40,082 nt of DNA from positions 1-40,082 of the forward strand of contig CALFRK010000159.1 in assembly GCA_937919625.1 (NCBI GenBank), in the 5' to 3' direction. The first letter of the stretch is position 1, and every line of letters begins with the position of its first letter. Origin of the DNA: an uncultured Ilumatobacter sp. (GTDB lineage Bacteria > Actinomycetota > Acidimicrobiia > Acidimicrobiales > Ilumatobacteraceae). The notes beneath the pieces were generated by a model. The model ran no database searches. It was not told the DNA's origin and saw nothing but the letters and a program-made list of their open reading frames with translations. Positions 7,946-38,923 of the stretch are shown in pieces. A program made the position numbers and the translations under genes.

Positions 7946-7978
7946 GTTGGTAGTTGTGCCAGGCACAACTACCAACTC
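7944..7978. repeat. perfect 17-base inverted repeat with 1-base centre
   Basis: Arms 7944-7960 and 7962-7978 are exact reverse complements around A7961, beginning GAGTTGGTAGTTGTGCC. It fills most of the 52 bases between the universal stress gene and the MFS gene downstream in the same direction. In RNA it would form a 16-bp stem with a tiny loop, but no T-run follows, so it may act as a weak or Rho-assisted terminator, an RNA-stability hairpin, or a dimeric protein operator in front of the MFS gene. Confidence 0.8.
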
Positions 7979-7997
7979 CAGTCCCTAGCCTGACGCA

Positions 7998-9763: not shown

Positions 9764-9844
9764 CACAACATTCTGCCAGCCCACAGCCGACTGTCGGCAA
9801 GAGAGGGTGTTTCCGCTCGCGACCGCGGCGCTGTTGGACCCGGT

Positions 9845-10120: not shown

Positions 10121-10133
10121 ATCGACAACCTAG

Positions 10134-10334
10134 GTCGCGCCGCACGGTCTCGTCGATGGAACACCGGCCGCGACGTTGGCGTGCGAGATCTCCGGGCAGT
10201 TCGGCGTGAGGTCGCTCGACGCCGTCTACTCGGCGAGCGAGAAACGGCTGATGATCGACGGCTTGGCGTTTATCACGTTCGATCATCGCCAAGCCGAGGC
10301 CGCCAGACGCCGGGACCTACGAGTGCTGGGGTGA
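10134..10334 (+). pseudogene. C-terminal remnant of a PIN-domain (VapC-like) toxin
   Basis: After an in-frame TAG at 10131-10133 the frame runs open to a TGA at 10332-10334. It ends VRSLDAVYSASEKRL, then LAFITFDHRQAEAARRRDL, which is the last third of a PIN domain, including the Asp of SLDA and the FITFD strand that supply acidic active-site residues in VapC RNases. The N-terminal catalytic Asp and the antitoxin gene are missing and no start codon precedes the similarity, so it is a dead fragment. Confidence 0.6.
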
Positions 10335-10344
10335 GCTGGGTACC

Positions 10345-11217: not shown

Positions 11218-11218
11218 G

Positions 11219-12268: not shown

Positions 12269-12330
12269 GTACGCGACCCTATCCACAGCGGTGACTCCAG
12301 ATCAGTGTGCTAGCGGCCGATACAGGACTC

Positions 12331-13626
12331 ATGGAGGAATCGCGCCGCCACGGCGATCTCACGGCAGAAGAAGCGCGGGTGCTCGGTTGTTTGATCGAGA
12401 AGGAGGCGACGACGCCCGATAACTACCCGCTCACGCTGAATTCCTTGCGCAATGCCTGCAGCCAGTCGACCAGCCGCGATCCCGTGGTTTCCTTCGCCGA
12501 CCACGATGTCGAGCGGGCGTTGGCGTCGTTGCGCGAACGAGGGCTGACCCGAACGGTGCACAGCACATCGAATCGTGCCGCCAAGTATCGGCACATTGTG
12601 CCGGAGGCGCTGAACCTCGATCCGGGCGAGACGGCTTTGATATCGGTCCTGTTGTTGCGGGGGCCACAGACATTGGGCGAGCTCAAGGGCCGCAGCGAAC
12701 GCCAACATCAGTTCGAATCGACCGATGAGGTCGCCGGCGTGCTGGCCCATCTGGCTGCCCGCAGCGACCCCATGGTGCTTCAACTCGAACGTCGCCCAGG
12801 ACAAAAGGACGCCCGGTGGGTCCATCTGCTGTGCGGCGACGACGCTTCGGTCACCACCCCGCCGTCGAACGGCGAGGCATCACCAGCAAACGAAGTGTCG
12901 GCCTCTGATGACCCCTACGGCGAGGCGACGGCCGAGTTTTACGATCTGCTCGCCACGGCCCACTGGGAGACATTTGGGATGCAACTGCTGGTGCTGTTGT
13001 CAGAGGTCGACCCAGCGGATGGCCCAATCCTCGACATCGGGGCTGGAACCGGGGTTGGGTTGCCGTACCTGGAGGTGGCCGTGCCGGAGGCTCGCGTCCA
13101 CGCCGTCGAGCCGTCGAGGGCGATGCGCACCGCCTTGCATACCCGCCTGGCACTCGACGCCAACCTGCGCCATATCACCACGGTCGAACCGCGCACATTC
13201 GCTCGGGCCCAGCTGCCCGAGCGGGCTTGTGCGCTGGTCGCCTCCGCCACACTGGGACATCTCAGCGATGCCGAGCGAGGGCGCCTTTGGCGCTACATCG
13301 CCGAGCAGATGCCAGCTGGCGCGCCGGCCGTGATCGAAGTGCTCCCTCCGGATCGCCCGCTTACGGTGCCACCAACTCGGTACCGCGAGCTCGCCGTCGG
13401 TGAATACACCTACGAGGGCTGGCAGCAAGGCGAACCGGCGGACGAGCACCATATGGCCTGGACCATGACCTATCGGGTGCTCAACGACGAGGAAGAAGTG
13501 GCCAGCTACTCCGTGCGGAGCAGATGGCGGTGTTTCAGCGTCGACGACATCCGGTCAGAGATTGCGCCGTTCGGGCTGACCTTGTGCGAGCACGAGGATT
13601 GTGTGGTCGTCACGCGTCCAGCTTGA
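12331..13626 (+). CDS. fusion of YceH-like (DUF480) domain and SAM-dependent methyltransferase
   Basis: This is a 431-aa two-domain protein. Residues 1-175 are a YceH/DUF480 winged-helix protein: LTAEEARVLGCLIEKEATTP, DNYPLTLNSLRNACSQSTSR, a second winged helix and LLLRGPQTLGELKGR. After a linker (SVTTPPSNGEASPANE), residues about 200-431 form a class I methyltransferase with GPILDIGAGTGVGLPYLEVA as the SAM loop and ARVHAVEPS as the acidic strand. YceH is normally a stand-alone protein of about 200 residues with no firm function. The fusion suggests that it helps choose or regulate the methylation target. ATG 12331 is preferred to GTG 12307. Confidence 0.8.
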   Translation: MEESRRHGDLTAEEARVLGCLIEKEATTPDNYPLTLNSLRNACSQSTSRDPVVSFADHDVERALASLRERGLTRTVHSTSNRAAKYRHIVPEALNLDPGETALISVLLLRGPQTLGELKGRSERQHQFESTDEVAGVLAHLAARSDPMVLQLERRPGQKDARWVHLLCGDDASVTTPPSNGEASPANEVSASDDPYGEATAEFYDLLATAHWETFGMQLLVLLSEVDPADGPILDIGAGTGVGLPYLEVAVPEARVHAVEPSRAMRTALHTRLALDANLRHITTVEPRTFARAQLPERACALVASATLGHLSDAERGRLWRYIAEQMPAGAPAVIEVLPPDRPLTVPPTRYRELAVGEYTYEGWQQGEPADEHHMAWTMTYRVLNDEEEVASYSVRSRWRCFSVDDIRSEIAPFGLTLCEHEDCVVVTRPA

Positions 13627-13667
13627 TCGTCGGAGCGTGTAAGTGGGCGACCGGGATCGCAAATCGG

Positions 13668-14090
13668 TCAGAGAAACTCGCGCAGCCAGGCCGGCAGCCG
13701 GGTTGGACGACCCTCTGGCGTGACGCAGCCGTGGGCGGTGACACCCGTCGCCCGTAGCTCGCCGGCGACCGTGAGCAGATAGGCCATCTGGAACGAGGCG
13801 CGTTCGACCGACGCCATCGTGGTGTGCACATCGACGACGTCGTCGAACAGCAATGGCCGTCGATACTGCAGGAACGCCTCGAGCACGTTCATCTCGACGC
13901 CCTCGGCCCGAATCTCCTGATATGGGTGGCCGACGTGGCGGAGGTAGGCGATCCGGGCCTCCTCGAGCATCGGGAGATATCGGCTGTGGTGCACGATCCC
14001 CATCGCGTCGGTCTCGGCGAAGCGAACACGAAGCTGGTGGGCGAACTCGTAGTCGCCTGAGTCGGTCGAAGGGTCGGTTGAGATTCGCAC
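13668..14090 (-). CDS. acyl-CoA thioesterase, YbgC/4HBT type
   Basis: This hotdog-fold thioesterase has about 140 aa. HQLRVRFAETDAMGIVHHSRYL is the N-terminal signature with the catalytic Asp of the ETDAMG motif. EEARIAYLRHVG is the central helix, and VDVHTTMASVERASFQMAYLL and GCVTPEGRPTRLP complete the fold. GTG at 14090 is chosen because longer readings would run into the divergent YbaK gene (start 14141); only 50 bases then separate the two starts. Substrate unknown. Confidence 0.8.
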   Translation of the reverse strand: MRISTDPSTDSGDYEFAHQLRVRFAETDAMGIVHHSRYLPMLEEARIAYLRHVGHPYQEIRAEGVEMNVLEAFLQYRRPLLFDDVVDVHTTMASVERASFQMAYLLTVAGELRATGVTAHGCVTPEGRPTRLPAWLREFL

Positions 14091-14140
14091 GCTGCGACCA
14101 TAGGTCGTTCGATGCCGGCTTGGCGGTGCATACTCCGAGC

Positions 14141-14605
14141 GTGACACCGGCGATCAACGAGCTGGAACAGGCGGGTGTGCCGTTCAGCCTGCACGAATAC
14201 GAGCGGGGTGAGTCGCTGCACGACTTCGGCGTCGAGGCGGCGGACAAGCTGGGATTCGCCCCCGATCAGGTGTTCAAGACACTGATCGTCACCGCCGATG
14301 GCCGCCACGCGGTGGCGATCGTGCCGGTCAGCGGCAAGCTGGCATTGAAGGCGGTCGGCAAGGCACTCGGCGCGAAGCGGGTCGACATGTGTGACCCGGT
14401 CGAGGCTGAGCGGATCACCGGCTATGTACGCGGCGGCATCAGCCCGTTCGGCCAGAAGAAGCGACTGTCAACGGTCCTCGACGAGATGGCGACCCTGTTC
14501 GAAACGATCTATGTCAGCGGCGGCAAACGTGGCCTCGACATCGGCGTGGCGACCAGCGACCTGGTGCATGTGCTCAACGCCACGGTTGCCGACATCGCCG
14601 CCTGA
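14141..14605 (+). CDS. ybaK: Cys-tRNA(Pro)/Cys-tRNA(Cys) deacylase YbaK
   Basis: This is a 154-aa editing protein of the YbaK/EbsC family that hydrolyses cysteine mischarged on tRNA-Pro. Landmarks include FSLHEYERG, ADKLGFAPDQVFKTLIV, VAIVPVSGKLALKAVGKALG (the catalytic and substrate-binding Lys region), VTGYVRGGISPFGQKKRLST-type loop at about residues 85-105, and the terminal GGKRGLDIGVATSDLVHVLN. Length is normal. Start GTG at 14141 is the only one that gives the family N-terminus (TPAINELEQAGVPFSLHEY). Confidence 0.9.
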   Translation: MTPAINELEQAGVPFSLHEYERGESLHDFGVEAADKLGFAPDQVFKTLIVTADGRHAVAIVPVSGKLALKAVGKALGAKRVDMCDPVEAERITGYVRGGISPFGQKKRLSTVLDEMATLFETIYVSGGKRGLDIGVATSDLVHVLNATVADIAA

Positions 14606-14622
14606 ATCCTCGCCGCTCGCTG

Positions 14623-15540
14623 TCAGCGGCTGGGGTGGCGCATCATCGCTTCGATCCGTGCCACTCGGGTGCGGGCCGGTGGGTGAGTTGCCGACAGACG
14701 TGCCCTCCAACCGATCGCTCGTTCGCCACCGCCGAGTCGGATCACGGCTCGCAGCGCGTCGACCAGGGCGCGTCCGTAGCCCATCCGGACTGCACGCCGA
14801 TCAGCCTCGAACTCAGAGCCTTGTCCGACGATGTTGGCTAGCGCGTCCGAGGCGTATAGCGCCGCCAGAAAGACCCACGAGATGGCGGTCAGAAGCCCGG
14901 CTGCGGTGCGCCCCAACGCAGTCAGCGCAGCCGAGTGCGAAACGAACGAATCCGTAGCGGCCCGAGCCACATTCTGTAGGTAGAAGCCGACCCGCGACAG
15001 GATCAATACTGGCAACGAAAGCCAATGGCCCAGCGTCAGCGCGGCCGTGTGTAGTCCGAGATGATGGCTGAGTTCATGGGCGAACACACCTGACAGCTCG
15101 TGTGGCGACAATTCCTCGATCGCAAACGATGTGACGATCAGAAGATTCCCTCCGCATGCGTAGGCGTTCAGCTCGTCGGAGTCGATCACACGAATCACAT
15201 AGCGGTACTGAGGCTGGTTGGCCTTCGCCGCCAGATCGCGCCAGATCGGCGTGATCACCGCCAGCTCATCCACCGACGGCCGCCGCGCCCCGAAGAACGG
15301 ACTGAGCACGGTGACCTGCACCGACGGAACGAACAACAGCAGACCGATCAACAGCCATGCCGTTGGTACCACCCAGTACGGGACCCCGAGTGTGAGACGC
15401 AACGGAATCCAGACGATTCCCATCGCCAGCAGCCAGAACGGCACAAGGGCGGCGACTGGCACCAGGGCGGTGACCGCTGACCGTTCAATCTGGCGGCTCG
15501 TCTGCTCAGCCGGCGTTCCCGTATTGGCCAGCGAACCCAT
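14623..15540 (-). CDS. M48 family membrane metalloprotease (HtpX-like)
   Basis: The protein is about 305 aa. Two N-terminal transmembrane helices (LVPVAALVPFWLLAMGIVW and WLLIGLLLFVPSVQVTVL) are followed by a cytosolic peptidase domain with GVFAHELSHHLGLHTAAL, the HExxH zinc motif, and GSEFEADRRAVRMGYG carrying the third ligand Glu. Another hydrophobic pair lies between them (LGHWLSLPVLILSRVGFYLQ and LLTAISWVFLAALYASDA). This is the HtpX layout for membrane-protein quality control. ATG 15540 is preferred; the frame extends to a TTG at 15627 with no support. Confidence 0.85.
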   Translation of the reverse strand: MGSLANTGTPAEQTSRQIERSAVTALVPVAALVPFWLLAMGIVWIPLRLTLGVPYWVVPTAWLLIGLLLFVPSVQVTVLSPFFGARRPSVDELAVITPIWRDLAAKANQPQYRYVIRVIDSDELNAYACGGNLLIVTSFAIEELSPHELSGVFAHELSHHLGLHTAALTLGHWLSLPVLILSRVGFYLQNVARAATDSFVSHSAALTALGRTAAGLLTAISWVFLAALYASDALANIVGQGSEFEADRRAVRMGYGRALVDALRAVIRLGGGERAIGWRARLSATHPPARTRVARIEAMMRHPSR

Positions 15541-15668
15541 AACGAGAGGATACGGAACGTGTGCCCACAACCCGAGCCGAGTGCCGCTGATGCCGTTGCG
15601 CCGGGCAACGGCCGAACCGGCCGTCAAGAAGCCTTCAAGTTCCGATCGCAGAGTGCCGAAGGAGAGGC

Positions 15669-17423
15669 GTGGAGTCCAATGCCATTACGGCGACAGAACC
15701 GGTCGCGTCACCAGCCGTACAAGACCTGTTGCGGAGAGCGGCCGAGGCTCAAGAACAGAGCCCGGTCGAAGCCCGACAACACGCCCTACAAGCGCGTGTT
15801 GTCGCGCGTGCCGACGGTGACAGGGTCGGTGAAGCAGAATCGTTGTACCGGCTCGCCAGCCTCGCCCACTTCGGTGCCGACCCTGAGGACGCGTTCGGGT
15901 TGGCGATGGAAGCCAGCGAGGTCGCCAGTGCCTGTGGCGCCTCGATGGTCAATGCCTGGGCGGTCCATCTGCTCGGAATTATCCACTACCAGGCCTCGAA
16001 CTTCTCCGAAGCGCTCGAACACTGCCTGCAGGCGCTCGACATCTACCAAGCGACGGTCGATGGGGTCGACGCCGGCAACATCCTCAACACGATCGCCGCC
16101 GTTTACCACTCGATGGGCGACAACGATCGGGCGATCGTCACCTACGAGCAGGCGCTCGCCGCGTCCGAGCCATTTGGGCGCCCGGAGATGGTGGCCCTGA
16201 TCCTCGGTAATATCGCCCGGATCCGATCGTCGCGTTCGGAGTATCTCCCCGCAGTGTCGATGGGTCGCCGTGCGGTCGAGATCGCTCGCGAGCACAGCCC
16301 GTCGATCGTCACCAATCTGCTCGCCGATCTGGCCGAGGCCTATATGGGCCTGGCCGACCATCAAAAGGCAGTCGAGTGCTTCACCGAGGCGAGACGGGTG
16401 CTTGCGCAAATGTCCGAGGAGGGTGCCGAGCCGTCGTACTCGGCGCAACTGGGCGTGATGGTGGCCGAAGGTCGCGTGGCGCTTCGCCGCGGTGCGCTCG
16501 ACGAAGCGATCTCGGTGCTCCAGGCGGCCCTCGACATGTCGGAACGCACCGAATCAAAAGAGTATGAGCTGGAGATCAACGACCTGCTTGCCACCGCGTT
16601 CAAGCGCAGCGGACGGTTCGAGGAGGCGCTCGAACGCCGCGAAACCCACGACGACCAGTATCGGCAAATGTTCACGCACGCTGCCGACCTGCGGTTGCGC
16701 ACCCTGCAGGTTGCTCACGAGACCGCCGCCGCCCGTCATGAAGCCGAGATCTTCCGGCTTCGTGCGCAGGAACTCGAAGTCATTGGAGGCGACGACGGCC
16801 GCCTGTCAACCGAGAACCCCAGTGTGATGGCCACGGCGCATCTCGAGGCGTTCGAGCAATTGGCAATCCTCACCGAGTTTCGTGACGCCGAGACCGGCGA
16901 ACACACCCATCGTGTCGGCGACATGGCAGCTGAGCTCGCTCATGCGCTGGGCAAGTCACCCGAGTGGTGCGAACAGCTCCGCCTGGCGGCTCGCCTGCAC
17001 GACATCGGCCGCGTCGCCGTACCCGACGCGGTGCTTCGCAAGACCGGTCCAATGACGGTCGATGAGTACGAGATTATGAAGTCGCACACCAGCATGGGCC
17101 ACCGAATCCTGGCAGGCAACTCTGCGCCCTTGTTTCAGATGGCCGCCGAGGTCGCCCAATCGCACCACGAGTGGTGGGACGGCAGCGGGTACCCGTTGGG
17201 CATCAGCCACAACTCGATCGCACTCACCGGTCGGATCGTCGCCATCGCCGACGTGTACGACGCCCTTTGCAGCAAGCGCCCGTACAAGCGGGCGTGGCCG
17301 ATGGAGGAGGCAGCTCGGTTCGTCGTTTCGGGCCGCTCGGCCCAGTTCGACCCCGATGTCGTCGATGCGTTCATCGCCGTGCTCACCGCCCGGTACCCAG
17401 AACTCGACGGGCAACTGGGCTGA
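15669..17423 (+). CDS. TPR-repeat protein with C-terminal HD-GYP domain (cyclic-di-GMP phosphodiesterase type)
   Basis: The protein is 584 aa. Residues about 20-350 form repeated helical hairpins of the tetratricopeptide type (for example SLYRLASLAHFGADPEDAF, AIVTYEQALAASEPFG, LADHQKAVECFTEARRVL, ALDEAISVLQAAL). A coiled-coil stretch follows (about 350-385, LRTLQVAHETAAARHEAEI). The last 190 residues are an HD-GYP domain: TGEHTHRVGDMAAELA, LAARLHDIGRVAVPD, the SHHEWWDGSGYPLGI motif and IADVYDALCSKRPYK. HD-GYP enzymes hydrolyse cyclic di-GMP using a di- or tri-metal centre, whose His and Asp ligands appear intact. No membrane segment is visible. The GTG at 15669 has a GGAG site four bases upstream. 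Confidence 0.85.
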   Translation: MESNAITATEPVASPAVQDLLRRAAEAQEQSPVEARQHALQARVVARADGDRVGEAESLYRLASLAHFGADPEDAFGLAMEASEVASACGASMVNAWAVHLLGIIHYQASNFSEALEHCLQALDIYQATVDGVDAGNILNTIAAVYHSMGDNDRAIVTYEQALAASEPFGRPEMVALILGNIARIRSSRSEYLPAVSMGRRAVEIAREHSPSIVTNLLADLAEAYMGLADHQKAVECFTEARRVLAQMSEEGAEPSYSAQLGVMVAEGRVALRRGALDEAISVLQAALDMSERTESKEYELEINDLLATAFKRSGRFEEALERRETHDDQYRQMFTHAADLRLRTLQVAHETAAARHEAEIFRLRAQELEVIGGDDGRLSTENPSVMATAHLEAFEQLAILTEFRDAETGEHTHRVGDMAAELAHALGKSPEWCEQLRLAARLHDIGRVAVPDAVLRKTGPMTVDEYEIMKSHTSMGHRILAGNSAPLFQMAAEVAQSHHEWWDGSGYPLGISHNSIALTGRIVAIADVYDALCSKRPYKRAWPMEEAARFVVSGRSAQFDPDVVDAFIAVLTARYPELDGQLG

Positions 17424-29417: not shown

Positions 29418-29699
29418 CGGTGGCTTGCGGGGCGGCCGGCGATGAACGCCTCGTACGACTGGTTAATGAACTGTTCGAATCTGGAGAACTCCGATTCGGC
29501 GAGCGCACCCTGGGCTCGACATTGGCGGCGGGTGCCTACCCCGAGGCTCGGACCCGACTTGCTTCATAACCTCGCTTGTGCCACAGCGGGTCGGGCGGCG
29601 TCGGGTTGGATGCAGAAGCGATCCGTCGGGCGGGTTAGCGGAAATCAGACGCCATATCACCCGTCCGATTTCCGCTCGTTGTTGCGGTCGCAATGCGGC
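29418..29699. other. 282-base gap before the Ada/AlkA gene
   Basis: It holds a short plus-strand frame (from about 29381 to 29569) reading ERLVRLVNELFESGELRFGE, then LGSTLAAGAYPEARTRLAS. Its composition is protein-like, but I recognise no family and no start is convincing. The remainder should contain the promoter of the alkylation-repair operon; I could not identify an Ada box. Confidence 0.4.
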
Positions 29700-31157
29700 A
29701 TGATGGTTTCCGTGACCAACCCGGCGACGATTGCTCTCGACCACGACCGGTGTTACCGGGCGGCGCAAAGTCGCGACGCCCGATTCGACGGTTGGTTCTA
29801 CGTCGCCGTTCGAACTACCGGCATCTACTGTCGCCCCAGCTGCCCGGCCGTCACCCCCAAGCGCGGGAACGTCGAGTTTCACCGTTCGGCGGCGGCCGCC
29901 CAGCAGCTCGGGTTCAGAGCCTGCAAGCGGTGCCGGCCCGACGCCGCCCCTGGATCACCCGAATGGGACGTGCGTGGCGACCTGGTCGGGCGGTCCATGC
30001 GTCTGATCGCCGATGGTGTTGTCGACCGTGAGGGCGTCGCCGGATTGTCCGAACACCTCGGCTACAGCACTCGCCACCTCAACCGGTTGTTGACCAACGA
30101 GCTCGGCGCCGGACCGCTAGCGCTCGCCAGAGCGCAGCGTGCCCAGACGGCGCGGATCCTGATCGAGACGACCGATCTTTCGATGACCGCCATCGCATTC
30201 GCCGCAGGGTTCGGCAGTGTGCGCCAGTTCAATGACACGGTCCGCGGGGTGTTCGCCACGGTGCCGAGCGAACTCCGTCAGCGAACGTTGAACAAGGGCC
30301 GAACGACGACGGATTCTGGTGCGGTCTCCGTTCGGCTGGCAGTTCGTGGTCCATTCGCCGGTCGTCAGCTGTTCGAGCACATCGGCGCTCGGGCAGTCCC
30401 AGGCGTCGAACTGTGGGACGGCGCGGCCTACCACCGTGCACTCGATCTACCGAACGGCCACGCCACCGTGGTCGTCCTCCCGGCCGACGATCATGTCCAA
30501 GCCACATTCCACCTGACCGACTGGCGCGACCTTGCCCCCGCCGTCGGACGAATCCGGCGCCTGCTCGACCTCGACGCCGATCCTGTGGCGATCGACGAAC
30601 AACTCGGTGCCGACCTTCATCTCGGCCCGCTCGTCGCAGCCACACCTGGCATGCGAGCAGCAGGATCCGTCGACCCTTACGAGACACTCGTACGGGCGAT
30701 CATCGGACAGCAGGTCTCGGTCGCCGGCGCCAAGACTGTGACCGGCCGTGTCGTCGAGGCGATCGCTGACCCGCTGACGGTCGCTCACCCGGCGCTCACT
30801 CACGTGTTCCCGTCGATGCGGCGCCTTGCCGCAGCCGACCCGGCCGTGTTCCCGATGCCGACGGCCCGCGCCGCCACCCTGCAACGTGTCGGCGAGGCGG
30901 TCGTTAGTGGGCAACTCGTGCTTGATGCCGGCGTCGATCGCGAAGCGGTGATCGAACAACTCGTCGCGTTGAAGGGGATCGGTCCTTGGACCGCCCAGTA
31001 CGTCGTGATGCGCGGCCTGGGCGATCCTGACGTGTTGCTCGACACCGACCTCGGCATACGCCACGCCCTAAACGCCCTCGACCTCAGCACGGACGCCGCA
31101 GACCGGTGGCGGCCATGGCGCACGTACGCCATGCACCATCTGTGGGCCACACTGTGA
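29700..31157 (+). CDS. alkA: Ada-type methyl-sensor/AraC domain fused to AlkA DNA-3-methyladenine glycosylase
   Basis: The protein is 485 aa (slightly shorter if GTG 29712 is used). Residues about 10-85 form the Ada zinc domain with four Cys ligands (GIYCRPSCPAVTPKRG and GFRACKRCRPDAAPGSPEW), one of which accepts methyl from phosphotriesters. Residues 90-190 are an AraC-type double helix-turn-helix (GLSEHLGYSTRHLNRLL, AIAFAAGFGSVRQFNDTVR). The C-terminal half is an AlkA glycosylase with AIIGQQVSVAGAKTVTGRVV, the helix-hairpin-helix LKGIGPWTAQYVVMRGLG and the catalytic Asp in DTDLGIRHAL. It senses alkylation, activates repair genes and excises alkylated bases. It is followed by ogt with 11 bases between. 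Confidence 0.92.
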   Translation: MMVSVTNPATIALDHDRCYRAAQSRDARFDGWFYVAVRTTGIYCRPSCPAVTPKRGNVEFHRSAAAAQQLGFRACKRCRPDAAPGSPEWDVRGDLVGRSMRLIADGVVDREGVAGLSEHLGYSTRHLNRLLTNELGAGPLALARAQRAQTARILIETTDLSMTAIAFAAGFGSVRQFNDTVRGVFATVPSELRQRTLNKGRTTTDSGAVSVRLAVRGPFAGRQLFEHIGARAVPGVELWDGAAYHRALDLPNGHATVVVLPADDHVQATFHLTDWRDLAPAVGRIRRLLDLDADPVAIDEQLGADLHLGPLVAATPGMRAAGSVDPYETLVRAIIGQQVSVAGAKTVTGRVVEAIADPLTVAHPALTHVFPSMRRLAAADPAVFPMPTARAATLQRVGEAVVSGQLVLDAGVDREAVIEQLVALKGIGPWTAQYVVMRGLGDPDVLLDTDLGIRHALNALDLSTDAADRWRPWRTYAMHHLWATL

Positions 31158-31168
31158 AGGAGACAACA

Positions 31169-31702
31169 ATGGCGACGATTCACCCACCCTTGTTCCGCGC
31201 GACGATGTCATCACCGATCGGACTGTTGACGCTCGTCGCCAACGACGCCGCGATCGTGGCTATCCGCTGGGATGAAGACACCCCCGACTCTCATAACCCG
31301 GTCGATGTCAAGCTCGGCGAGGATTTCGTCGACGTGAGCGCCGGCGAGCACGCCGTGCTCGATCAAGCGGTCGAGCAACTCGCTGAGTACTTCGCGGGGG
31401 AACGTGTCGACTTCGACCTCCCGCTCGACCCCGACGGCACGCCGTTTCAGAAGAAGGCGTGGGACGCGCTCGTGAAGATCCCATTCGGCGAGACGATCAG
31501 CTATGGCGAACAAGCCGTGATGCTCGGCGACAAGAACAAGTCGCGCGCGGTCGGTGCGGCCAACGGCAAGAACCCGATCCCGATCGTCGTGCCATGTCAC
31601 CGGGTGGTCGGCAGCAACGGTCATCTCACCGGCTTCGCCGGTGGCCTGAACATGAAGGCGTGGCTGCTCGACCACGAGTTCAGAGTCCGCGCCGCGCACT
31701 AG
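31169..31702 (+). CDS. ogt: methylated-DNA-[protein]-cysteine S-methyltransferase
   Basis: This 177-aa suicide enzyme removes methyl from O6-methylguanine. The active-site motif IPIVVPCHRVVGSNGHLTGF is intact, preceded by the helix-turn-helix region GTPFQKKAWDALVKIPFGET and SYGEQAVMLGDKNKSRAVG, and followed by GGLNMKAWLLDHE. ATG 31169 has an AAGGAGA site. In the same operon as the Ada/AlkA gene, so likely induced by it on methylation. Confidence 0.95.
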   Translation: MATIHPPLFRATMSSPIGLLTLVANDAAIVAIRWDEDTPDSHNPVDVKLGEDFVDVSAGEHAVLDQAVEQLAEYFAGERVDFDLPLDPDGTPFQKKAWDALVKIPFGETISYGEQAVMLGDKNKSRAVGAANGKNPIPIVVPCHRVVGSNGHLTGFAGGLNMKAWLLDHEFRVRAAH

Positions 31703-31713
31703 TCGCAGAACGG

Positions 31714-32391
31714 TCAGAGGTGTTTGAGGGCTTCTCGCCGGGTCAGGCCGCTCAGTAGCTCGCCGCGATCGAGCACGTACGCCCGCACCGCGTCTGGATC
31801 GTGCCGGGCGTGCTGGCGCAATGCCCACCCGCATGCTTTGCGGATGAAGAACTCTTTGTCGGCACACCTACGGTCGACGTAGCCGAACAGCCGCTCGGCG
31901 TCGGTGTCGGCGCCGTATCTGAGCTGGTGCAGAATCGCCGTGCGGACGATCCAGAAGTCAGGATCGTCGATCCAAGCGTCGATCGTCGCCGTCAAACCCG
32001 GATTGTTGGCAATTAGTGATCCCACCACGTGGGCGGCGAGTACGTCCACCGTGTCCCACCACGACTTCGTACGGGCCAGCCGCTCGACGGTCGGCAACGA
32101 GTTCGGATCGAGTCGGGCCTTCCAACGGCTGAGTAGATCGGCCGCCACGTATTGGAACTCGCGTTCAGGCTGCGCCCAGCAGGCCTCGGCGGCCACCAAC
32201 AGTTGCGCAGACGTTGCGTCACGTCCGCCGGCCACGAACGGCTTGGCCGCCCATTGGCGTTCCGGGGCGGTGACGCCGAGGTACTCGAAGTTATCCTTCA
32301 TGTACGCCTTCATCTGGGGCGCTTTGCCGGGCTGGGCGACCGTTTCCAGTCGGCGACGCAGCTCAGGTATCAGGTCGACGAGGGCGACCAC
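31714..32391 (-). CDS. alkD: AlkD-type DNA alkylation repair protein
   Basis: This 225-aa HEAT-like repeat glycosylase excises 3- and 7-alkylated purines without base flipping. Landmarks are MKAYMKDNFEYLGVTAPER, EREFQYVAADLL, RTKSWWDTVDVLAAHVVG (the Trp/Asp face), DPDFWIVRTAILHQLRYG, DKEFFIRKACGWALRQHARH and a basic C-terminus. Ends 11 bases from the convergent ogt gene, giving three alkylation-repair genes side by side. Confidence 0.9.
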   Translation of the reverse strand: MVALVDLIPELRRRLETVAQPGKAPQMKAYMKDNFEYLGVTAPERQWAAKPFVAGGRDATSAQLLVAAEACWAQPEREFQYVAADLLSRWKARLDPNSLPTVERLARTKSWWDTVDVLAAHVVGSLIANNPGLTATIDAWIDDPDFWIVRTAILHQLRYGADTDAERLFGYVDRRCADKEFFIRKACGWALRQHARHDPDAVRAYVLDRGELLSGLTRREALKHL

Positions 32392-33059: not shown

Positions 33060-33320
33060 TCAGGAGATCTCGTCGACAATGCCGACGATCACCGAACGAA
33101 CCGGTCCCGTCGAGATTCCGTAGATCTGGCGTGCCGACGTGCCCTCGTCACAGATCAGCACGTGCTCACCGACACCGGCATTTACGACGTCGACGGCGAT
33201 CAGATACCCATTCGGCGTGCCATCGGGATCGATCAGATCGCATAACAAGAGGCGTTGTCCATCGTAGAAGGGGTGGCTGATAGGGGAGACCACTGTGCCG
33301 GCAACACGGGCGAGCTTCAT
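33060..33320 (-). CDS. BMC-P (EutN/CcmL-type) pentameric vertex protein, copy 1
   Basis: This 86-aa protein forms the pentamer that caps microcompartment vertices. It opens KLARVAGTVVSPISHPFYDG, the universal EutN/CcmL first strand and loop, with LLCDLIDP, YLIAVDVVNAGVGEHVLIC and the closing VIVGIVDEI. It is the last recognisable shell gene of the operon. Its ATG overlaps the upstream stop as ATGA. It differs in sequence from the other two copies, so mixed vertices are possible. Confidence 0.92.
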   Translation of the reverse strand: MKLARVAGTVVSPISHPFYDGQRLLLCDLIDPDGTPNGYLIAVDVVNAGVGEHVLICDEGTSARQIYGISTGPVRSVIVGIVDEIS

Positions 33321-33598
33321 GCGCCGTCGTCCGCCAGGGTGATGTGATCCACCAAACCGACGATGGCATGGTCGATCGGCACAAAACGTTCGGGCATCGC
33401 TTCGGCCGCCTCGCGAGACGCAACGAAGTAGACCAGCTCACCCGGGCCTGCCATCGCTACGGCATCGGCGGCGACGACAGCGCTACCACTGTCGTTCTGG
33501 TGCTTGTCGAGTGGTTGCACAATCAGGAACTTGATGCCATCGAGCCCTGGACCGCGCGTCGTGGCGACGACTGTGCCGATCACGCGTCCGAGGTGCAT
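33317..33598 (-). CDS. BMC-P (EutN/CcmL-type) pentameric vertex protein, copy 2
   Basis: This 93-aa vertex protein opens MHLGRVIGTVVATTRGPGLD, then KFLIVQPLDKHQNDSGSAVV, ADAVAMAGPGELVYFVASRE and AIVGLVDHITL. The ATG at 33598 overlaps the BMC-T stop by one base (TGATG), and its own stop overlaps copy 1 by four bases, so the three shell genes are translationally linked. A longer frame upstream is a shadow of BMC-T. Confidence 0.92.
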   Translation of the reverse strand: MHLGRVIGTVVATTRGPGLDGIKFLIVQPLDKHQNDSGSAVVAADAVAMAGPGELVYFVASREAAEAMPERFVPIDHAIVGLVDHITLADDGA

Positions 33599-34236
33599 CA
33601 GGTTGCTCCTGTGCCTCGCCGCAGCTGACGATTGAATCGCAGCTCGGCATCTAGGTTGGCGCGCATATCGTCGTGTAGTTGGGCGATCACGGCGGAGTTC
33701 AAGAGCTGTCCACCGGACTCGATCCGCGAGACTGCACCTTCGACTGCAGCCTCGACATCGGCGACCGTGCCCCCGAACAGGCAATACGCCTTGCCGCCGA
33801 GATCGTCGGCCAGGCGCAACGCCAGCAGCGAAACGGAGGCCGTCTTCACACCCGCATCGGCAGCGACGATCGCCGTGGCGGTTGTCGCTGTTTCGATGAT
33901 GCCGACCGCATCGCCGACCACGGTGCCGGATGGGTCGGTGGTGGTGATGGCGGCGATCACCGAGGGATGCACGTCGGCAAGAAACAAGGAATCGACGACG
34001 GTGTCGTTGCCGCCGTTCTCGAGTGCAATCTCGACGGCGGCCGTGTCGCCACCAACCAGCACCAGATAGCGGCCAGGATGCACGGTTCCGGCGTACAGCG
34101 AGGTGATAGGCGACGACTTGGCCATCGCGTCTCCGGCGACGATGCCGGCAACGATCGACCCGAACTCGAGTAGGCCGATGGCAGGATCGAAGTCGCCCTC
34201 AAACTTACCGGTGAACCGATTGGGCGTGTCAGACAA
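33598..34236 (-). CDS. BMC-T tandem-domain shell protein
   Basis: This 212-aa protein has two fused BMC domains, forming a pseudohexameric trimer tile. Domain 1 (about residues 18-100) has AIGLLEFGSIVAGIVAGDAM, AKSSPITSLYAGTVHPGRYL and VLVGGDTAAVEIALE. Domain 2 (about 108-185) has AVGIIETATTATAIVAADAG, VKTASVSLLALRLADDL and GGTVADVEAAVEGA. The start is a TTG at 34236, supported by a TAGGAG site ten bases upstream inside the aldehyde dehydrogenase gene, which it overlaps by eight bases. It probably provides larger pores for bulky substrate or cofactor. Confidence 0.9.
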   Translation of the reverse strand: MSDTPNRFTGKFEGDFDPAIGLLEFGSIVAGIVAGDAMAKSSPITSLYAGTVHPGRYLVLVGGDTAAVEIALENGGNDTVVDSLFLADVHPSVIAAITTTDPSGTVVGDAVGIIETATTATAIVAADAGVKTASVSLLALRLADDLGGKAYCLFGGTVADVEAAVEGAVSRIESGGQLLNSAVIAQLHDDMRANLDAELRFNRQLRRGTGAT

Positions 34237-35686
34237 TGCGCAGGGCTCCTACGACAGTGACGCGTCGGATACGCGAAAACGTCCGTGGTCGGGTGAGGCC
34301 CTCACCCGTGGGGCTGGCGATCGAGAACGACGTGAAACCTTCGCCACCCTGGCCGAGGCCAGCGAAGTTCGGACCGTTCGCCACCAAGATCGAGCAGTTC
34401 ATCGCCCGCGCCATAGTGGTGATCGTGTCGACATTGGTCGAGTGAATCGATGCCGTGTGCCGAAACCCGTGCTCGGAACGCACGGCCAGGTCGATCGCTG
34501 CTGCCGCGTCTTTGACCCGTACGACCGGCATCACCGGCATCATCTGCTCGGTCCAGACAAGCGAGTGGTCGGATGGCACTTCGGCGACCAGAAGTCGCAC
34601 ACTGTTGTCGACCTCGACCCCGATCTCTTTCAACAGCGCGCCTGCGTTCTTGCCGATCCACGCTGGATTGATGGCACCCGCCTTGTTGGGCGCTCCGATC
34701 TCGTTGAAGATCACCCGCTCGAGGCGTTTCAGCTCGTGATCCTTCAGCCTGTACGCCCCGGCCTTCTGCATCGCTCGCACCAGTGCGTCAGCGACGGTGT
34801 CGACGACGATCGTGGTCTTTTCGTCGACGCACACGATGTTGTTGTCGAACGATGCGCCGCGCACGATGTCGCGGCCGGCCTGCTCGATGTCGGCGGTTTG
34901 GTCTACCACGGCCGGTGGGTTGCCCGGCCCGGCGGTGATCGCCTTTTTGGGGGTTCGTAGCGCCTCGCGCACCACGGCCGGGCCACCGGTGACCAGCAGC
35001 ACACGAATGTCGGGGTGCGCCATCAGTTCGCGAGCGGATTCGAGGGTGGGGTTCGGAACGGCTGTGATCAGATCGGGCGGGCCCCCGGCGGCGACGATCG
35101 CACGGTTGAGGAGCTGGATGTTTTCGACGGACACCAGCCGTGCTCCGGGATGGACGTTGAACGTGACGGCATTGCCGGCGGCGATCATGGCAATGCTGTT
35201 GTTGATGATCGTCGATGTCGGGTTGGTGGTGGGGGAGATCGATCCGATCACGCCGTACGGCGCGTACTCGGTGACCATCATCCCGCCGTCGCCGGTGACC
35301 GCCTGTGGCTCGAGGTCCTCTGGACCCGGTGTTTTGGTGGTGACCATCAGGTTCTTCTGAACCTTGTCTTCGGCGCGGCCGAGCCCGGTCTCAGCGTGCG
35401 CCATGTATGCCAGGCGCTCGCCCTCGCGCAGCATCGCAGCGCGCATCGCCTCGACGATCGTCCGCCGGGACTCGAGCCCCATCAGGCGATAGGCCTCGAA
35501 CGCCCTCGCTGCGGCACCGACTGCGGCATCGATAGTGGGGTAGATCCCGTCACCCATCAACGCCTGGTCGGCCCCGAGATCGTCTGTAGCGCGCAATACT
35601 TTGGCGGCGCTGTTTGCACCCTCGGCGCTGGACACGCGGGTCCGCACGCGGGCGATGATCGCCTGGATCTCCGTGTCGTTCAGCAC
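34229..35686 (-). CDS. CoA-acylating aldehyde dehydrogenase of microcompartment type (PduP/EutE-like)
   Basis: This 485-aa enzyme converts aldehyde plus CoA and NAD+ to acyl-CoA and NADH; acetaldehyde is the expected substrate beside deoC. The catalytic Cys lies in SFDNNIVCVDEK, with APYGVIGSISPTTNPTSTII, GNAVTFNVHPGA, LLVTGGPAVVREAL and GPGNPPAVVD as cofactor and fold motifs. The first 18 residues (LNDTEIQAIIARVRTRV) form an amphipathic helix followed by a Ser/Ala/Gly linker, the form of an encapsulation peptide. Starts at GTG 35686, seven bases after the third EutN gene. Confidence 0.92.
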   Translation of the reverse strand: MLNDTEIQAIIARVRTRVSSAEGANSAAKVLRATDDLGADQALMGDGIYPTIDAAVGAAARAFEAYRLMGLESRRTIVEAMRAAMLREGERLAYMAHAETGLGRAEDKVQKNLMVTTKTPGPEDLEPQAVTGDGGMMVTEYAPYGVIGSISPTTNPTSTIINNSIAMIAAGNAVTFNVHPGARLVSVENIQLLNRAIVAAGGPPDLITAVPNPTLESARELMAHPDIRVLLVTGGPAVVREALRTPKKAITAGPGNPPAVVDQTADIEQAGRDIVRGASFDNNIVCVDEKTTIVVDTVADALVRAMQKAGAYRLKDHELKRLERVIFNEIGAPNKAGAINPAWIGKNAGALLKEIGVEVDNSVRLLVAEVPSDHSLVWTEQMMPVMPVVRVKDAAAAIDLAVRSEHGFRHTASIHSTNVDTITTMARAMNCSILVANGPNFAGLGQGGEGFTSFSIASPTGEGLTRPRTFSRIRRVTVVGALRIV

Positions 35687-35693
35687 GTGCTAC

Positions 35694-35981
35694 TCACTTC
35701 GTGTAGACGGTTTCGCCGTCGATCTCCCAGGTGTCGACAATTGCCATGATGACGGCATCGCACGGTCGATTCTGGGTGACGGCGGTCTGGCGGGCCGAAC
35801 TGCCCGAGGCGTACATGACGACCTCGCCCACCCCGGCGCCGACCGAGTCGACGGCGACGACGTAGCCGCCGCTCTCGGTGTTGTCGACGCCGAGCTGGCG
35901 CACGATGAGCATCGTGAGCCCGTTCATCAGGGGTTCCTTCTGACTGGCTACAACGGTGCCAGTTACGCGACCCAACAGCAT
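35694..35981 (-). CDS. BMC-P (EutN/CcmL-type) pentameric vertex protein, copy 3
   Basis: This 95-aa vertex protein opens [20 protein letters not shown], then [33 protein letters not shown] and [17 protein letters not shown] 35981 follows a GAGG site. Unlike the other two copies it sits upstream of the aldehyde dehydrogenase, 80 bases after BMC-H, and may be expressed at a different level from them. Confidence 0.92.
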
Positions 35982-36061
35982 CGGTGCCTCACCTCCGCGA
36001 GCATTTCGGCTCGGCCATTCCGCTCACGGTCGCGATTAGACCGATCAGGGTTGGCACGGGC

Positions 36062-36364
36062 TCAGCTCGACTCGGCTGCTGCTTCGACCGAACGGCCGAG
36101 CGGAAGCACGATGTCGATATTGGTATGTGGGCGGGCGATGACGTGGCTCGAGATGACCTCGCCGACCTTCTCCGCCCCGCGAACGCCCGAGTCGATTGCC
36201 GCCTTGACAGCCGCGACGTCGCCGCGCACGATAGCGGTCACGTAGCCGCCGCCAGTCGACTGGTACGAAACCAGATCGACCTTGGCCGCCTTGACCATCG
36301 CATCGGCGGCCTCGACCATCGCTGCGAAACTCCTGCATTCGATCATGCCGAGTGCATCAGCCAT
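36062..36364 (-). CDS. BMC-H hexameric shell protein
   Basis: This 100-aa canonical single-domain shell protein builds the facets. It opens ADALGMIECRSFAAMVEAAD, then AMVKAAKVDLVSYQSTGGGY (pore loop STGGG) and VTAIVRGDVAAVKAAIDSG. It ends with a short tail after ARPHTNIDIVLP. ATG 36364 has an AGGGAG site. It is the only BMC-H in the window, so the facets should be built mostly from it. A 62-base AT-richer gap upstream could hold an internal promoter or an RNA-processing site to boost its level. Confidence 0.95.
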   Translation of the reverse strand: MADALGMIECRSFAAMVEAADAMVKAAKVDLVSYQSTGGGYVTAIVRGDVAAVKAAIDSGVRGAEKVGEVISSHVIARPHTNIDIVLPLGRSVEAAAESS

Positions 36365-36426
36365 TTCTGGCTCCCTTCATTGCTGTTGATTGTGTTGATT
36401 GTGATCTCATGCCGCGCAGGTTGGTC

Positions 36427-37050
36427 CTACGAGCGACCGTCGAGTGCTTCGAGTGAGGCGACCGCCGCTTGCCATCCGACATCGATGTCCTTTTCGTCGC
36501 CACCGAGGAACACGCGGCCCATGGCCCCGGCTGCGCGAACTTCGAGGACATTGATGTCGGCCGCCTTTTCTGCCTCGTTGGCAGCGAGAGGGGCGTATCC
36601 CGCCGGCTCACATTCGAGTACGTAAAGGGTTTCGCCGGGGACGATCATCTGGCCATGTCGCATGCGGTTGATCAGCTGAGCGTGGTGGTCGTCGATGCGG
36701 CGGATGATCTGGCTCGACAGAATTTTCGGCTTGATTCGATCTGACTCGTGGAGTCCGAGCGACTGGAGGATCGCCTCACCCGCAGCCCTGATTTCGGACT
36801 GGTCGGGGGAGTGGATTTCGAGCAGACCGAAGTAGCGCTCGATGATCTGCATGCCTGGCTTGACATTGGTTGCCTTCAGGGCGACATCGGTGAGCCGGTT
36901 GATCTCGATGCCAGGGGAAACCTCGATGTACAACGAGGCGTCGCCGGCGAGCGGAAGAAACCCCGCAGCCACGGTGCCGAGGAAGGCCGCGTACTGGGGT
37001 TGCAGGCTGTCGAGGAACGCAAACGTTCGAATTTCAATATTTGTCGCCAC
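36427..37050 (-). CDS. divergent tandem-BMC shell protein, EutL-like arrangement
   Basis: The protein is about 207 aa. Sequence similarity to BMC domains is weak but the pattern appears twice: [23 protein letters not shown] and [20 protein letters not shown], then [32 protein letters not shown] and [20 protein letters not shown]. The leading [19 protein letters not shown] resembles the extra helical start of EutL. A trimer-forming BMC-T tile is inferred. The start is uncertain: GTG 37050 has AAGGAG six bases upstream, whereas ATG 37071 would overlap deoC by 38 bases. It sits between deoC and BMC-H in the operon, which supports a shell role. Confidence 0.65.
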
Positions 37051-37882
37051 CACGGTCTCCTTGATCTCCACTGACGATTTGTACGCCTGCCGACGCTCCG
37101 ATACGTGTTGCCCCGGCAGCGATCATGTCTTCGACATCCGACTTGGTTCGCACGCCGCCCGACGCCTTGACGCCCATCTTGGGGCCAACGGTTTCGCGCA
37201 TCAAGGCGACGTCGTAGACGGTGGCGCCACCGCCGCTGAAGCCGGTCGATGTCTTCACGAAATCGGCCTTGGCCTGCTTGGCCAGCGATGAGGCGATCAC
37301 TTTCTCTTCGTCGGTCAGCAACGAGGTTTCGAGGATCACCTTCACGATCGCCCCGGCCTCGTGCGCCGAGTCGACAACCTTCTCGATATCGATCAACACC
37401 GTGGCGTGATCGCCAGACTTGAGCGCCCCGACGTTGACCACCATGTCGACCTCGCGGGCACCGTCGCGGATCGCCCTGCGGGCCTCGAGTGCCTTGATCT
37501 CGGAAGTGTTGGCGCCGAGCGGGAATCCGATCACCGTGCAGACCCTCACGCCACTACCGCGCAGGTTGGCGGAGCACCGCTTGACCCAAGCGGGGTTCAC
37601 GCACACGGAAGCAAATTTGTACTTGGCGGCCTCGCTGCAGAGCTTGTCGATGTCGTCAGCGGTGGTCTCGGGCTTGAGCGCCGTGTGGTCGATGTACTTC
37701 GCAAGATCGACCGGCACGTGTGAGGCGTCACCGTGGAATGCGACACGATCGGCCCCGTTCGTCACGACGTGGCGAACACCTTCAGCGGTGTCGCAACGGT
37801 CGAGCTGCGCGGCGAGCGTGGCGAGCACCTCCTTCGTGATGAGGTCGATCAGGAGGTCACGGTCGAATTGTTGATCGGTCAT
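37034..37882 (-). CDS. deoC: deoxyribose-phosphate aldolase with N-terminal encapsulation extension
   Basis: This 282-aa class I aldolase cleaves 2-deoxy-D-ribose 5-phosphate to glyceraldehyde 3-phosphate and acetaldehyde. The core begins [19 protein letters not shown]. It includes [30 protein letters not shown], the Asp of [14 protein letters not shown], the Schiff-base Lys in [20 protein letters not shown] and [13 protein letters not shown]. Ahead of it are about 60 extra residues, beginning with a likely amphipathic helix ([20 protein letters not shown]) and a linker, absent from ordinary DeoC and consistent with targeting to the shell lumen. Its ATG overlaps the rpiB stop as ATGA. Confidence 0.93.
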
Positions 37883-38478
37883 GCATCGGTCCTGACGTAC
37901 AATTCTTCGATCTCGCTGATGAGGGCAACCCGCCGCATGTGACGGTCGCCGCCCCACGGGGTGTTCAGGAACTCCTGCACGATCTGCCAGGCCAGATCGG
38001 GACCGGTAAGGCCGGCGCCCAGCGTCAGCACGTTGGCGCGGTTGTGCTCGCGGCTGTTGCGCGCCGTCGAGAGGTCGTAACAGGCCGCTGCGCGCACGTG
38101 CGGAATCTTGTTGGCCACCATCGCCGAACCGATCCCCGCCCCGTCGACCACGACCCCGGCGACACATTTGCCGGTGCCGACACGGCGGGCGACGGCGTGT
38201 GCAAACACCGGATAGTCGCACGCTTCGGTGTTGTCGGTGCCGCAATCGTCGATCGACCATCCGGCTTCGGTCAGCTTGGCCTTGATCGCCTGCTTGAGCC
38301 CGAACCCGCCATGGTCGGAGCCGATCGCGATACACCCGTCACGGTTACCAGCGGCCTGTTGGCGAGTCTGAGCCGGCTGGGCCGTGGTCGCCGACGACGC
38401 GCCGTCGAGCACGCCATTGAGCACCCGCTCCACGAGGTTTCGTACCTCGCTCTCCAAATCAGATCCTTGCGCGGCCAT
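37879..38478 (-). CDS. rpiB: RpiB/LacAB-family sugar-phosphate isomerase with N-terminal encapsulation extension
   Basis: This 199-aa protein is the first gene of the microcompartment operon. Residues 1-22 ([20 protein letters not shown]) form an amphipathic helix, then a Gln/Thr/Ala linker to about 45, then the RpiB fold: [74 protein letters not shown] and a C-terminal [12 protein letters not shown]. RpiB normally interconverts ribose and ribulose 5-phosphates. The catalytic Cys of the E. coli-type C-G-T-G loop is Asp here, and the Glu used by mycobacterial enzymes is Ser, so activity or substrate may differ. ATG 38478 has a TTGGAG site. Confidence 0.88.
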
Positions 38479-38556: not shown

Positions 38557-38923
38557 TCAGCCGCCCCCGAGCTCGTAGCTGCCGACCAGTTGGGCGTCGC
38601 CCGAGAACTCGGCGTTGCCGTCGAGCGGCTCGAGCATGACGGACATCCGGTTGAAGCTACGGTCGGCGACACCTGCCCAGAGTTCGATCGGCTTGTCGCT
38701 GCCGCGCAGATGGAATGTGCCTGCGCTGACACCAATGATGCCGTCGCTGATCGATGCCTCGCAAAAGTTGCCATCGGGTGCGGGCGCCAGAGGCCAGGTC
38801 AGGGTCGCGCACGATCGATCGTGCCACCGGGTACACGGCACCGGAATGCTCGCGATAGATCTCGCGGATCGCGTCTGAGTCGCCGGCTTTTATGCGTTCG
38901 ATCAGATCCGACATCGGCGCCAT
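38557..38923 (-). pseudogene. chimeric relic: ECF sigma-factor N-terminus joined to an unrelated C-terminus
   Basis: The minus strand from ATG 38923 reads MAPMSDLIERIKAGDSDAIR then EIYREHSGAVYPVARSIVRD, the start of sigma region 2 of an ECF sigma factor, but the similarity stops after DPDLA near 38800. From there a different frame reads PDGNFCEASISDGIIGVSAG and continues to a stop at 38557 ending LVGSYELGGG, which looks like the C-terminus of an exported or regulatory protein. A deletion fusing two neighbouring genes explains this. The remainder of the sigma factor (regions 2.3-4) is absent. Confidence 0.6.

Follow-up and report, generated by a model that had tools for sequence, protein, structure and literature searches.

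We describe a cluster of nine genes for a bacterial microcompartment (BMC) in the genome of an uncultured Ilumatobacter sp. The cluster lies in a stretch of 40,082 nucleotides that is the entire contig CALFRK010000159.1 and is referred to below as the window; the source genome is 4.10 Mb in size, with a completeness of 98.7%. All nine genes are on the minus strand and run from position 38478 to position 33060 in the order rpiB, deoC, a CcmP-like tandem shell gene (BMC-T), a hexamer gene (BMC-H), eutN1, the gene for an aldehyde dehydrogenase (AldDH), a second BMC-T gene, eutN2 and eutN3, each overlapping its neighbours or sitting close to them. Open reading frames, Pfam and NCBIfam agree on this make-up, and so bear out an earlier note on this DNA, which had read a minus-strand operon of rpiB, deoC, an acylating AldDH and six shell genes (one BMC-H, two tandem BMC-T and three EutN).

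37879..38478, minus strand: microcompartment "RpiB", 199 residues, with a predicted N-terminal helix of encapsulation type (about residues 4-25), a linker and the RpiB fold
37034..37882, minus strand: DeoC, deoxyribose-phosphate aldolase, 282 residues (ATG at 37882), with a putative encapsulation-type N-terminal helix, by sequence
36427..37071, minus strand: CcmP-like double-layer tandem BMC shell protein with the Glu-Arg gate pair E78 and R79
36062..36364, minus strand: BMC-H shell protein (hexamer), by Pfam and NCBIfam
35694..35981, minus strand: EutN/CcmL-type vertex protein 1, by Pfam and NCBIfam
34229..35686, minus strand: CoA-acylating aldehyde dehydrogenase (EutE/PduP type) with a putative encapsulation-type N-terminal helix, by sequence, and catalytic Cys286
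33598..34236, minus strand: second tandem BMC shell protein, with two PF00936 domains
33317..33598, minus strand: EutN/CcmL-type vertex protein 2 (ATG at 33598), by Pfam and NCBIfam
33060..33320, minus strand: EutN/CcmL-type vertex protein 3, by Pfam and NCBIfam

The operon has the defining features of the sugar-phosphate-utilising (SPU) class, namely an aldolase, an isomerase and shell genes in one locus, an acylating AldDH, and hexamers, tandems and pentamers; family matches and related loci likewise agree with the earlier assignment to the SPU type in an actinobacterial host. This kind of compartment is real and already catalogued. The class has been in print since 2014 (Axen 2014, PMC4207490) and is among the most prevalent types, with over 280 loci in 26 phyla (Sutter 2021, PMC8217296); both papers, which like the others below are cited for their passages on the point at hand, name ribose-5-phosphate isomerisation and DNA catabolism for it. 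We think it likely that the operon encodes an SPU-class catabolic microcompartment (metabolosome) for 2-deoxyribose 5-phosphate (dR5P), with an RpiB that would be repurposed and still catalytic, a reading that shell proteins of all three kinds, intact catalytic residues in DeoC and AldDH and encapsulation-type N-terminal stretches on the three enzymes support at the level of sequence. In the mechanism we propose, dR5P from deoxynucleosides would enter, probably via the gated pore of the CcmP-like protein, and AldDH would convert acetaldehyde to acetyl-CoA within the shell, which would prevent loss of the volatile aldehyde. Acetyl-CoA and NADH would not be recycled by PduL, Pta or an alcohol dehydrogenase of the operon; acetyl-CoA would be used directly, and product and cofactors would presumably pass to and from the cytosol, possibly by way of gated pores. 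The "RpiB" would be a separate, compartment-linked paralogue in which a carboxylate replaces the catalytic cysteine.

The nearest carrier of the operon is the congener Ilumatobacter sp. MO_167.B34 (NZ_JASJCS010000121.1; genome G101, locus L046, of which L008 is a duplicate), in which eight genes are 75-91% identical to those of the window and aldDH is in two pieces at a contig break, with 85% and 93% identity. Within the GTDB family of the host, BMC matches above cut-off occur in 2 of 200 genomes (the host's own and G101), while 94 of 395 genomes of the class have a CcmP-family match (E <= 0.001), at least one weaker match (L132, described below) belonging to another compartment type. From an AldDH scan of a species-genome collection we used the best 80 of 229 relatives, which are 63-87% identical to the window AldDH and whose record titles name Acidimicrobiia, Thermoleophilia, Nitriliruptoraceae, Chloroflexi, Acidobacteria and others. 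These and loci from other genomes gave, after duplicate removal, 90 mapped records, which were picked by AldDH or CcmP similarity and thus sample a single lineage rather than the full range of SPU types. The order rpiB, deoC, CcmP-like gene, BMC-H, eutN, aldDH, BMC-T, eutN, eutN (EutN paralogues not distinguished) is found in 55 of the 56 records whose contigs span the region, the sole deviant being a different BMC fetched via a weaker CcmP match; the 34 further records are truncated at a contig end, and of these 10 have the full order and 24 a run of consecutive genes from it. Because the congener and the 55 spanning relatives share this order, the operon is not a chance grouping. The minimal make-up that the earlier note had singled out as striking is the rule among these relatives, which have the same nine genes, and SPU loci with incomplete cores were described as early as 2014 (PMC4207490); the identical order also rules out reading the compactness as a sign of stripping or decay. 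The concern that DeoC or AldDH might group with housekeeping enzymes found nothing in its favour, 89 of the 90 mapped records holding the operon, whole or truncated by a contig end, although this is a weak test, the records having been preselected as the best AldDH or CcmP matches.

The window DeoC passes the equivalog-level model TIGR00126 at 283.5 bits (cut-off 117.3) and is the only match to it in the genome; a single DeoC match is likewise found in 20 of 25 carrier genomes. Its Schiff-base Lys, second Lys and Asp (Lys211, Lys240 and Asp147, numbered in the 283-residue frame that begins at 37885) are kept in 74 of 74 sequences, the outside reference for this comparison being three PDB sequences only. 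The AldDH passes PRK15398 at 618 bits (cut-off 403), and its catalytic Cys (the Cys286 column) is kept in all 88 sequences. Families and catalytic residues thus lend support to the capture by AldDH of acetaldehyde released by DeoC, as proposed in the earlier note. Pfam gives the CcmP-like first tandem protein a weak match (24.0 bits, cut-off 24.5), and against the CcmP model it reaches 321.9 bits, below the cut-off of 340; its Glu-Arg gate is kept in 80 of 80. All three window enzymes (RpiB, DeoC and AldDH) have an amphipathic-looking N-terminal stretch ahead of the fold, which is present also in most of the 26 N-termini inspected per enzyme, some frames having started too far upstream. In RpiB, Arg13 and Val16 of this stretch are invariant (73 of 73), and the predicted model places a helix at residues 4-25, followed by a linker of low confidence and then the RpiB fold, with a mean predicted local distance difference test score (pLDDT) of 76.4. 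All three enzymes bear N-termini of encapsulation type, judged from sequence and model for RpiB and from sequence for DeoC and AldDH, with a putative role in targeting; encapsulation peptides on core enzymes are common to many compartments.

A compound such as dR5P, which is without the C2 hydroxyl, cannot be converted to a 2-ketose. An RpiB beside DeoC is therefore a puzzle, and the compartment RpiB is probably no ordinary ribose-5-phosphate isomerase. The window protein matches PF02502 (LacAB_rpiB) at 164.6 bits, with 3he8 as its best PDB structure match, and passes the subfamily models PRK05571 (155.3 bits, cut-off 135) and TIGR00689 (147.5 bits, cut-off 88.3), but it misses the rpiB equivalog TIGR01120 (132.5 bits, cut-off 138.65). 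We divided the mapped RpiB frames by identity to the window protein before any motif was read; 72 were at least 46% identical, which with the window gives 73 compartment copies, and 18 fell below, these last lying in the fetched stretches of relatives and having mostly the Cys motif. The alignment was made without one housekeeping frame of 394 residues (L073), and the host's own housekeeping copy was read separately. In the L. donovani enzyme and its relatives, RpiB opens the furanose ring first and then isomerises; Cys69 takes the C2 proton, Thr71 shifts a proton between O2 and O1, ring opening is assigned to an active-site His (His102, in some work His138), Arg113 of L. donovani RpiB is given a part in recognising the substrate and Glu149 is also required there, the variant C69S is inactive and T. 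cruzi C69A is cited as inactive (PMC4783025). The roles given for Cys-65 and His-96 of LacAB are in agreement (PMC3755991).

With these roles transferred from PMC4783025 via our own alignment and numbering, the catalytic-Cys column is Asp in 73 of 73 compartment copies (Asp112 in the window), the Thr/Ser partner two positions on is Ala in 73 of 73 (Ala114), and the Arg113 site is Gly in 67 (Gly156 in the window) and Arg in 6. The earlier note had taken rpiB at face value, which does not hold with the catalytic cysteine gone in every compartment copy. Invariant in all 73 are Asp55, His56, Asp88, Asp112, His145, Arg179, His180 and Arg183, and the equivalents of His102, Asp45, Tyr46 and Pro47 and the phosphate-site Arg/His/Arg are likewise kept in all. 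What has been lost in the compartment RpiB is, as far as transferred roles can tell, the C1-C2 proton transfer, and what has been kept is ring opening and phosphate binding. All 17 aligned housekeeping copies from these loci carry Cys and Ser, and the host genome itself holds a second, housekeeping RpiB with the mycobacterial Glu-type motif, in which the Ser and the Arg at the Arg113 site are kept. Judging by conservation, the compartment RpiB is probably still an enzyme. That it is a degenerate, non-catalytic copy we reject, given the eight residues kept throughout.

A scan of 396 Actinomycetota genomes separates the two kinds in the same way. Eleven matches at 249-281 bits all have the motif DGAGIGS and all adjoin DeoC and CcmP, whereas the next 19 RpiB loci (at most 202 bits) have neither gene in their short flanks; the motif was read in 14 of these 19 and is of Cys type in 12 and of Glu type in 2. 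In a tree from which 5 of the 73 compartment copies, 4 of the 17 housekeeping copies and 7 of the 19 further canonical loci are absent, the compartment RpiB proteins form one group with 100/100 support on a long stem, the window protein standing beside that of Ilumatobacter MO_167.B34. We also note two RpiB-family proteins outside compartments, L154 (in genome G739) and L156 (G859), in which the Cys is kept and the Thr/Ser site is Ala (CGAGIG); of the non-compartment matches to the Asp-type RpiB, that of L154 scores highest. A further candidate explanation, that Cys was exchanged for Asp to make the protein proof against aldehyde, is ruled out by DeoC, whose reactive Cys, in a column that we take to be of the Cys47 type of E. 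coli DERA, is retained in 70 of 74 (Met in 4), so that reactive cysteines are not generally removed.

The residue pattern would fit an enzyme that opens the ring of dR5P, and a carboxylate-base isomerase of another sugar phosphate would fit it at least as well. That the compartment RpiB isomerises some sugar phosphate (ribose 5-phosphate, a triose phosphate or another) with Asp as the base is quite possible, if short of even odds; that it opens the furanose ring, from hemiacetal to aldehyde, and supplies open-chain dR5P to DeoC, the C1-C2 proton transfer having been given up, is a tentative possibility; and some other or a structural role is unlikely. Ring opening would make sense of the known division of labour between His102 on the one hand and Cys69 and Thr71 on the other (PMC4783025; for LacAB, PMC3755991), as all 73 copies retain the His but have other residues in place of Cys and Thr/Ser, and a Thr that serves O2 would be useless on dR5P, which has no O2. 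Yet the activity is a putative one, spontaneous opening may be fast enough, Asp is equally possible as the base of an isomerase, and L154 and L156 have the Ala with neither DeoC nor CcmP as a neighbour, so that Ala alone proves nothing. The most specific form of the idea, a new RpiB-fold enzyme that has dropped isomerisation and acts on dR5P only, Asp112 and His145 opening the ring and the aldehyde being handed to DeoC within the shell, we regard as doubtful.

Were the protein an ordinary ribose-5-phosphate isomerase with Asp as base, the compartment might handle RNA and DNA pentose phosphates jointly. Mycobacterial RpiB, with its carboxylate base Glu75, is a precedent (PMC4783025), the host's own housekeeping copy is of this Glu type, all 73 compartment copies retain many other residues of the active site, and surveys assign ribose-5-phosphate isomerisation to the class (PMC4207490, PMC8217296). 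We nevertheless hold this to be rather unlikely: the proton-shuttling Thr/Ser is Ala throughout and the Arg113 site mostly Gly, the host's Glu-type enzyme retains Ser and Arg at just those sites, and with a second RpiB in the host genome and 18 such frames in relatives an extra copy in the shell needs a reason. It is improbable that the compartment RpiB isomerises the DeoC product glyceraldehyde 3-phosphate or another short-chain compound and so pulls aldol cleavage forward; an SPU locus of Atribacteria encodes a triosephosphate isomerase (PMC4207490) and divergent RpiB proteins have been suspected of shorter-chain substrates (PMC3212906), but the phosphate-site residues Arg179, His180 and Arg183, kept in all 73, favour a five-carbon phosphate. 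More improbable still is a route in which RpiB makes an aldose from a ketose phosphate, DeoC cleaves the resulting 2-hydroxy pentose phosphate to glycolaldehyde and AldDH forms glycolyl-CoA. Such a route would account for an aldose-ketose isomerase adjoining DeoC, but DeoC matches TIGR00126 at the equivalog level (283.5 against 117.3 bits) with its catalytic residues kept, and the context in Chloroflexota is one of nucleosides and deoxyribose.

That context is found in two Chloroflexota records (L111 and L122, extended by L216 and L215), in which genes for a Bmp/PnrA-type binding protein, an ABC ATPase, BPD_transp_2 permeases, two PF01048 phosphorylases and a SorC/DeoR-type regulator precede the operon. 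One phosphorylase of L111 matches the purine-nucleoside model PRK08202 at 331 bits (cut-off 218), and the best match of the other is uridine phosphorylase at 231 bits, below the cut-off of 280.3; the L122 regulator best matches Bacillus DeoR (NF053881) at 212.9 bits, below the cut-off of 420, and L111 has a second DeoC (188 bits) downstream of the operon. The Chloroflexota context thus supports nucleoside-derived dR5P as the substrate. Among carriers, 17 of 25 have two PF02885 matches, and one of these in genome G232 scanned as thymidine phosphorylase, although the cluster of thymidine phosphorylase, purine-nucleoside phosphorylase and deaminase of G232 sits on a different contig from the operon. 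In the host genome the sole PF02885 match is one that we take, by eye, to be TrpD, so that thymidine would not feed the host's own compartment; since there are also four PF01048 phosphorylase-superfamily matches in the genome, purine deoxynucleosides are the likelier source in this host. The nucleoside scavenging proposed in the earlier note thus stands as far as the two Chloroflexota loci support it, and a nucleoside phosphorylase elsewhere in the genome, which the note had envisaged, has four superfamily candidates; it falls short in that no thymidine phosphorylase was found in the host genome.

No PduL match was found in the host genome or in any of 44 carrier genomes (each with a mapped operon or a CcmP-like match of at least 317 bits), and Pta was found neither in the host genome nor in the congener and 8 more of 25 genomes searched. 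Because neither PduL nor Pta was found, acetyl phosphate would not serve as an outlet in this host by way of either enzyme, and acetyl-CoA itself is probably the end product. The lack of PduL and Pta that the earlier note had remarked on around the operon extends to the host genome. No alcohol dehydrogenase, sugar kinase or transporter was seen around the operon either, no genome-wide search having been made for these. The gated CcmP-like pore is a candidate for the passage of cofactors, large cofactors being discussed in Sutter 2021 (PMC8217296).

Several points weigh against the reading of the operon as a dR5P metabolosome with a repurposed RpiB. We infer the substrate from sequence, and the shell is known here from its genes alone. 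No nucleoside gene adjoins the operon in the window, no thymidine phosphorylase was found in the genome, and nucleoside genes beside the operon in Acidimicrobiia were looked for in vain among 20 representative neighbour families scanned; the families there comprise housekeeping proteins (MurJ, MurA, polyphosphate kinase, MeaB and 6-phosphogluconolactonase among them), transporters that are not known to carry nucleosides, hydrolases and regulators, while some are unplaced. Even in Chloroflexota the nucleoside cluster is present in only 2 of 7 records, the other five having been scanned less deeply, and the best match of the transporter ATPase and permease is a putative vitamin B6 transporter, under cut-off. 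How NADH and CoA leave the shell, and how NAD+ returns, has no explanation. The model of RpiB has a pLDDT below 50 at residues 135-146, which include the putative ring-opening His145, and is uninformative on the geometry of the active site.

As for regulation, the earlier note had seen no regulator around the operon, and this holds for an intact one, but directly upstream of rpiB there is a remnant of a former pair, named by sequence reading.

38569..38923, minus strand: ECF sigma factor (residues 1-45) fused to the C-terminal part of an anti-sigma factor (residues 150-223), remnant

Here an ECF sigma/anti-sigma pair has collapsed through an internal deletion, whereas the congener, again by sequence reading, has an intact ECF sigma factor and its partner directly upstream of the operon. 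The pair is possibly a former regulator of the operon, to which position alone links it. A promoter scan gave no sigma-70-like site, and terminator-like sites number 9 over the two strands against 3.7 expected. Other regulators stand before the operon elsewhere: a SorC/DeoR-type family in four Chloroflexota records and a GntR-UTRA family in five Actinomycetota records, the scan covering one representative per family. Among the mapped frames, a further family, with 36 members, has a MerR-like N-terminal stretch by reading and is mostly divergent beside rpiB, its representative having no Pfam or NCBIfam match; such a divergent gene is seen in many Acidimicrobiia loci (L066:6459-7160:-, L051, L070) and has a conserved coiled-coil-like C-terminal motif. 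In relatives, a small gene that reads as lipoprotein-like (17 members, e.g. L062:3987) lies behind the eutN genes in the same orientation; it was not seen after eutN3 in the window. Downstream of the operon, the window has three adjoining DNA alkylation repair genes (29442-32391).

29442-31157, plus strand: Ada/AlkA fusion
31106-31702, plus strand: O6-methylguanine methyltransferase
31714-32391, minus strand: AlkD-type DNA_alkylation protein

The locus L132 (G264:C28:800-19800, at 7501-17265), from another Acidimicrobiia genome, is a different microcompartment locus, with glutamine synthetase, glutamate-synthase-like and GXGXG proteins, a frame of 851 residues with an aldehyde dehydrogenase domain, a lactate/malate dehydrogenase, and a shell of BMC-H, EutN and a CcmP-like protein.

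Catalogued SPU loci share with the window DeoC (pfam01791), RpiB (pfam02502), AldDH and a shell of BMC-H, BMC-T and BMC-P proteins, as well as the CcmP-like BMC-T(dp) reported for SPU2, SPU3 and others; alcohol dehydrogenase is reported missing from them. PduL is present in most SPU loci of the 2014 set but is not universal, one group being without it (PMC4207490), and the window operon differs in having no PduL, PduS or triosephosphate isomerase. An Asp-for-Cys RpiB is unmentioned in the text on SPU that we cite from Axen 2014 and Sutter 2021. With the microcompartment of Haliangium ochraceum (HO) the operon shares a CcmP-like shell protein (HO-5816, PDB 5v74, 233.7 bits) and the presence of three BMC-P per locus (PMC8217296); the pair of DeoC and RpiB sits in the operon in the window, whereas in HO, on our reading of the relevant text, it does not: some HO genomes have DeoC elsewhere, type I has an aldolase in a satellite and type II has one in the main locus, and RpiB goes unnamed there (PMC8217296). 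The best PDB sequence match of the CcmP-like protein is beta-carboxysome CcmP (4ht5, 280.9 bits), with the gate pair kept, but the operon has no RuBisCO or carboxysome enzyme by Pfam. The compartment RpiB shares with the enzymes of E. coli, C. thermocellum and T. cruzi the fold (3he8 best), the ring-opening His and the phosphate residues, and differs from canonical RpiB in Cys to Asp, Thr/Ser to Ala, mostly Arg113 to Gly and the putative encapsulation-type N-terminal helix. We recognised no functional study of SPU compartments among the matches listed, the literature covered being without most subscription journals and all bioRxiv preprints. The conserved replacement in the RpiB active site, the general lack of PduL in the lineage and the nucleoside cluster of Chloroflexota were not met among those matches either and appear to be new.

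In the published assignment of SPU compartments a ribose-phosphate isomerase stands beside a deoxyribose aldolase, even though deoxyribose phosphate cannot undergo isomerisation, and the fixed change of Cys to Asp makes this contradiction testable on one small protein. That such compartments occur where the genome lacks PduL, and in some cases lacks Pta, bears on how acetyl-CoA and NADH leave the shell. If the compartment RpiB has dropped isomerisation and only opens the ring of dR5P, then the label of isomerase would be wrong for SPU compartments of this lineage, and the compartment would serve deoxyribose alone, with no CoA- or NAD-recycling enzyme of its own.

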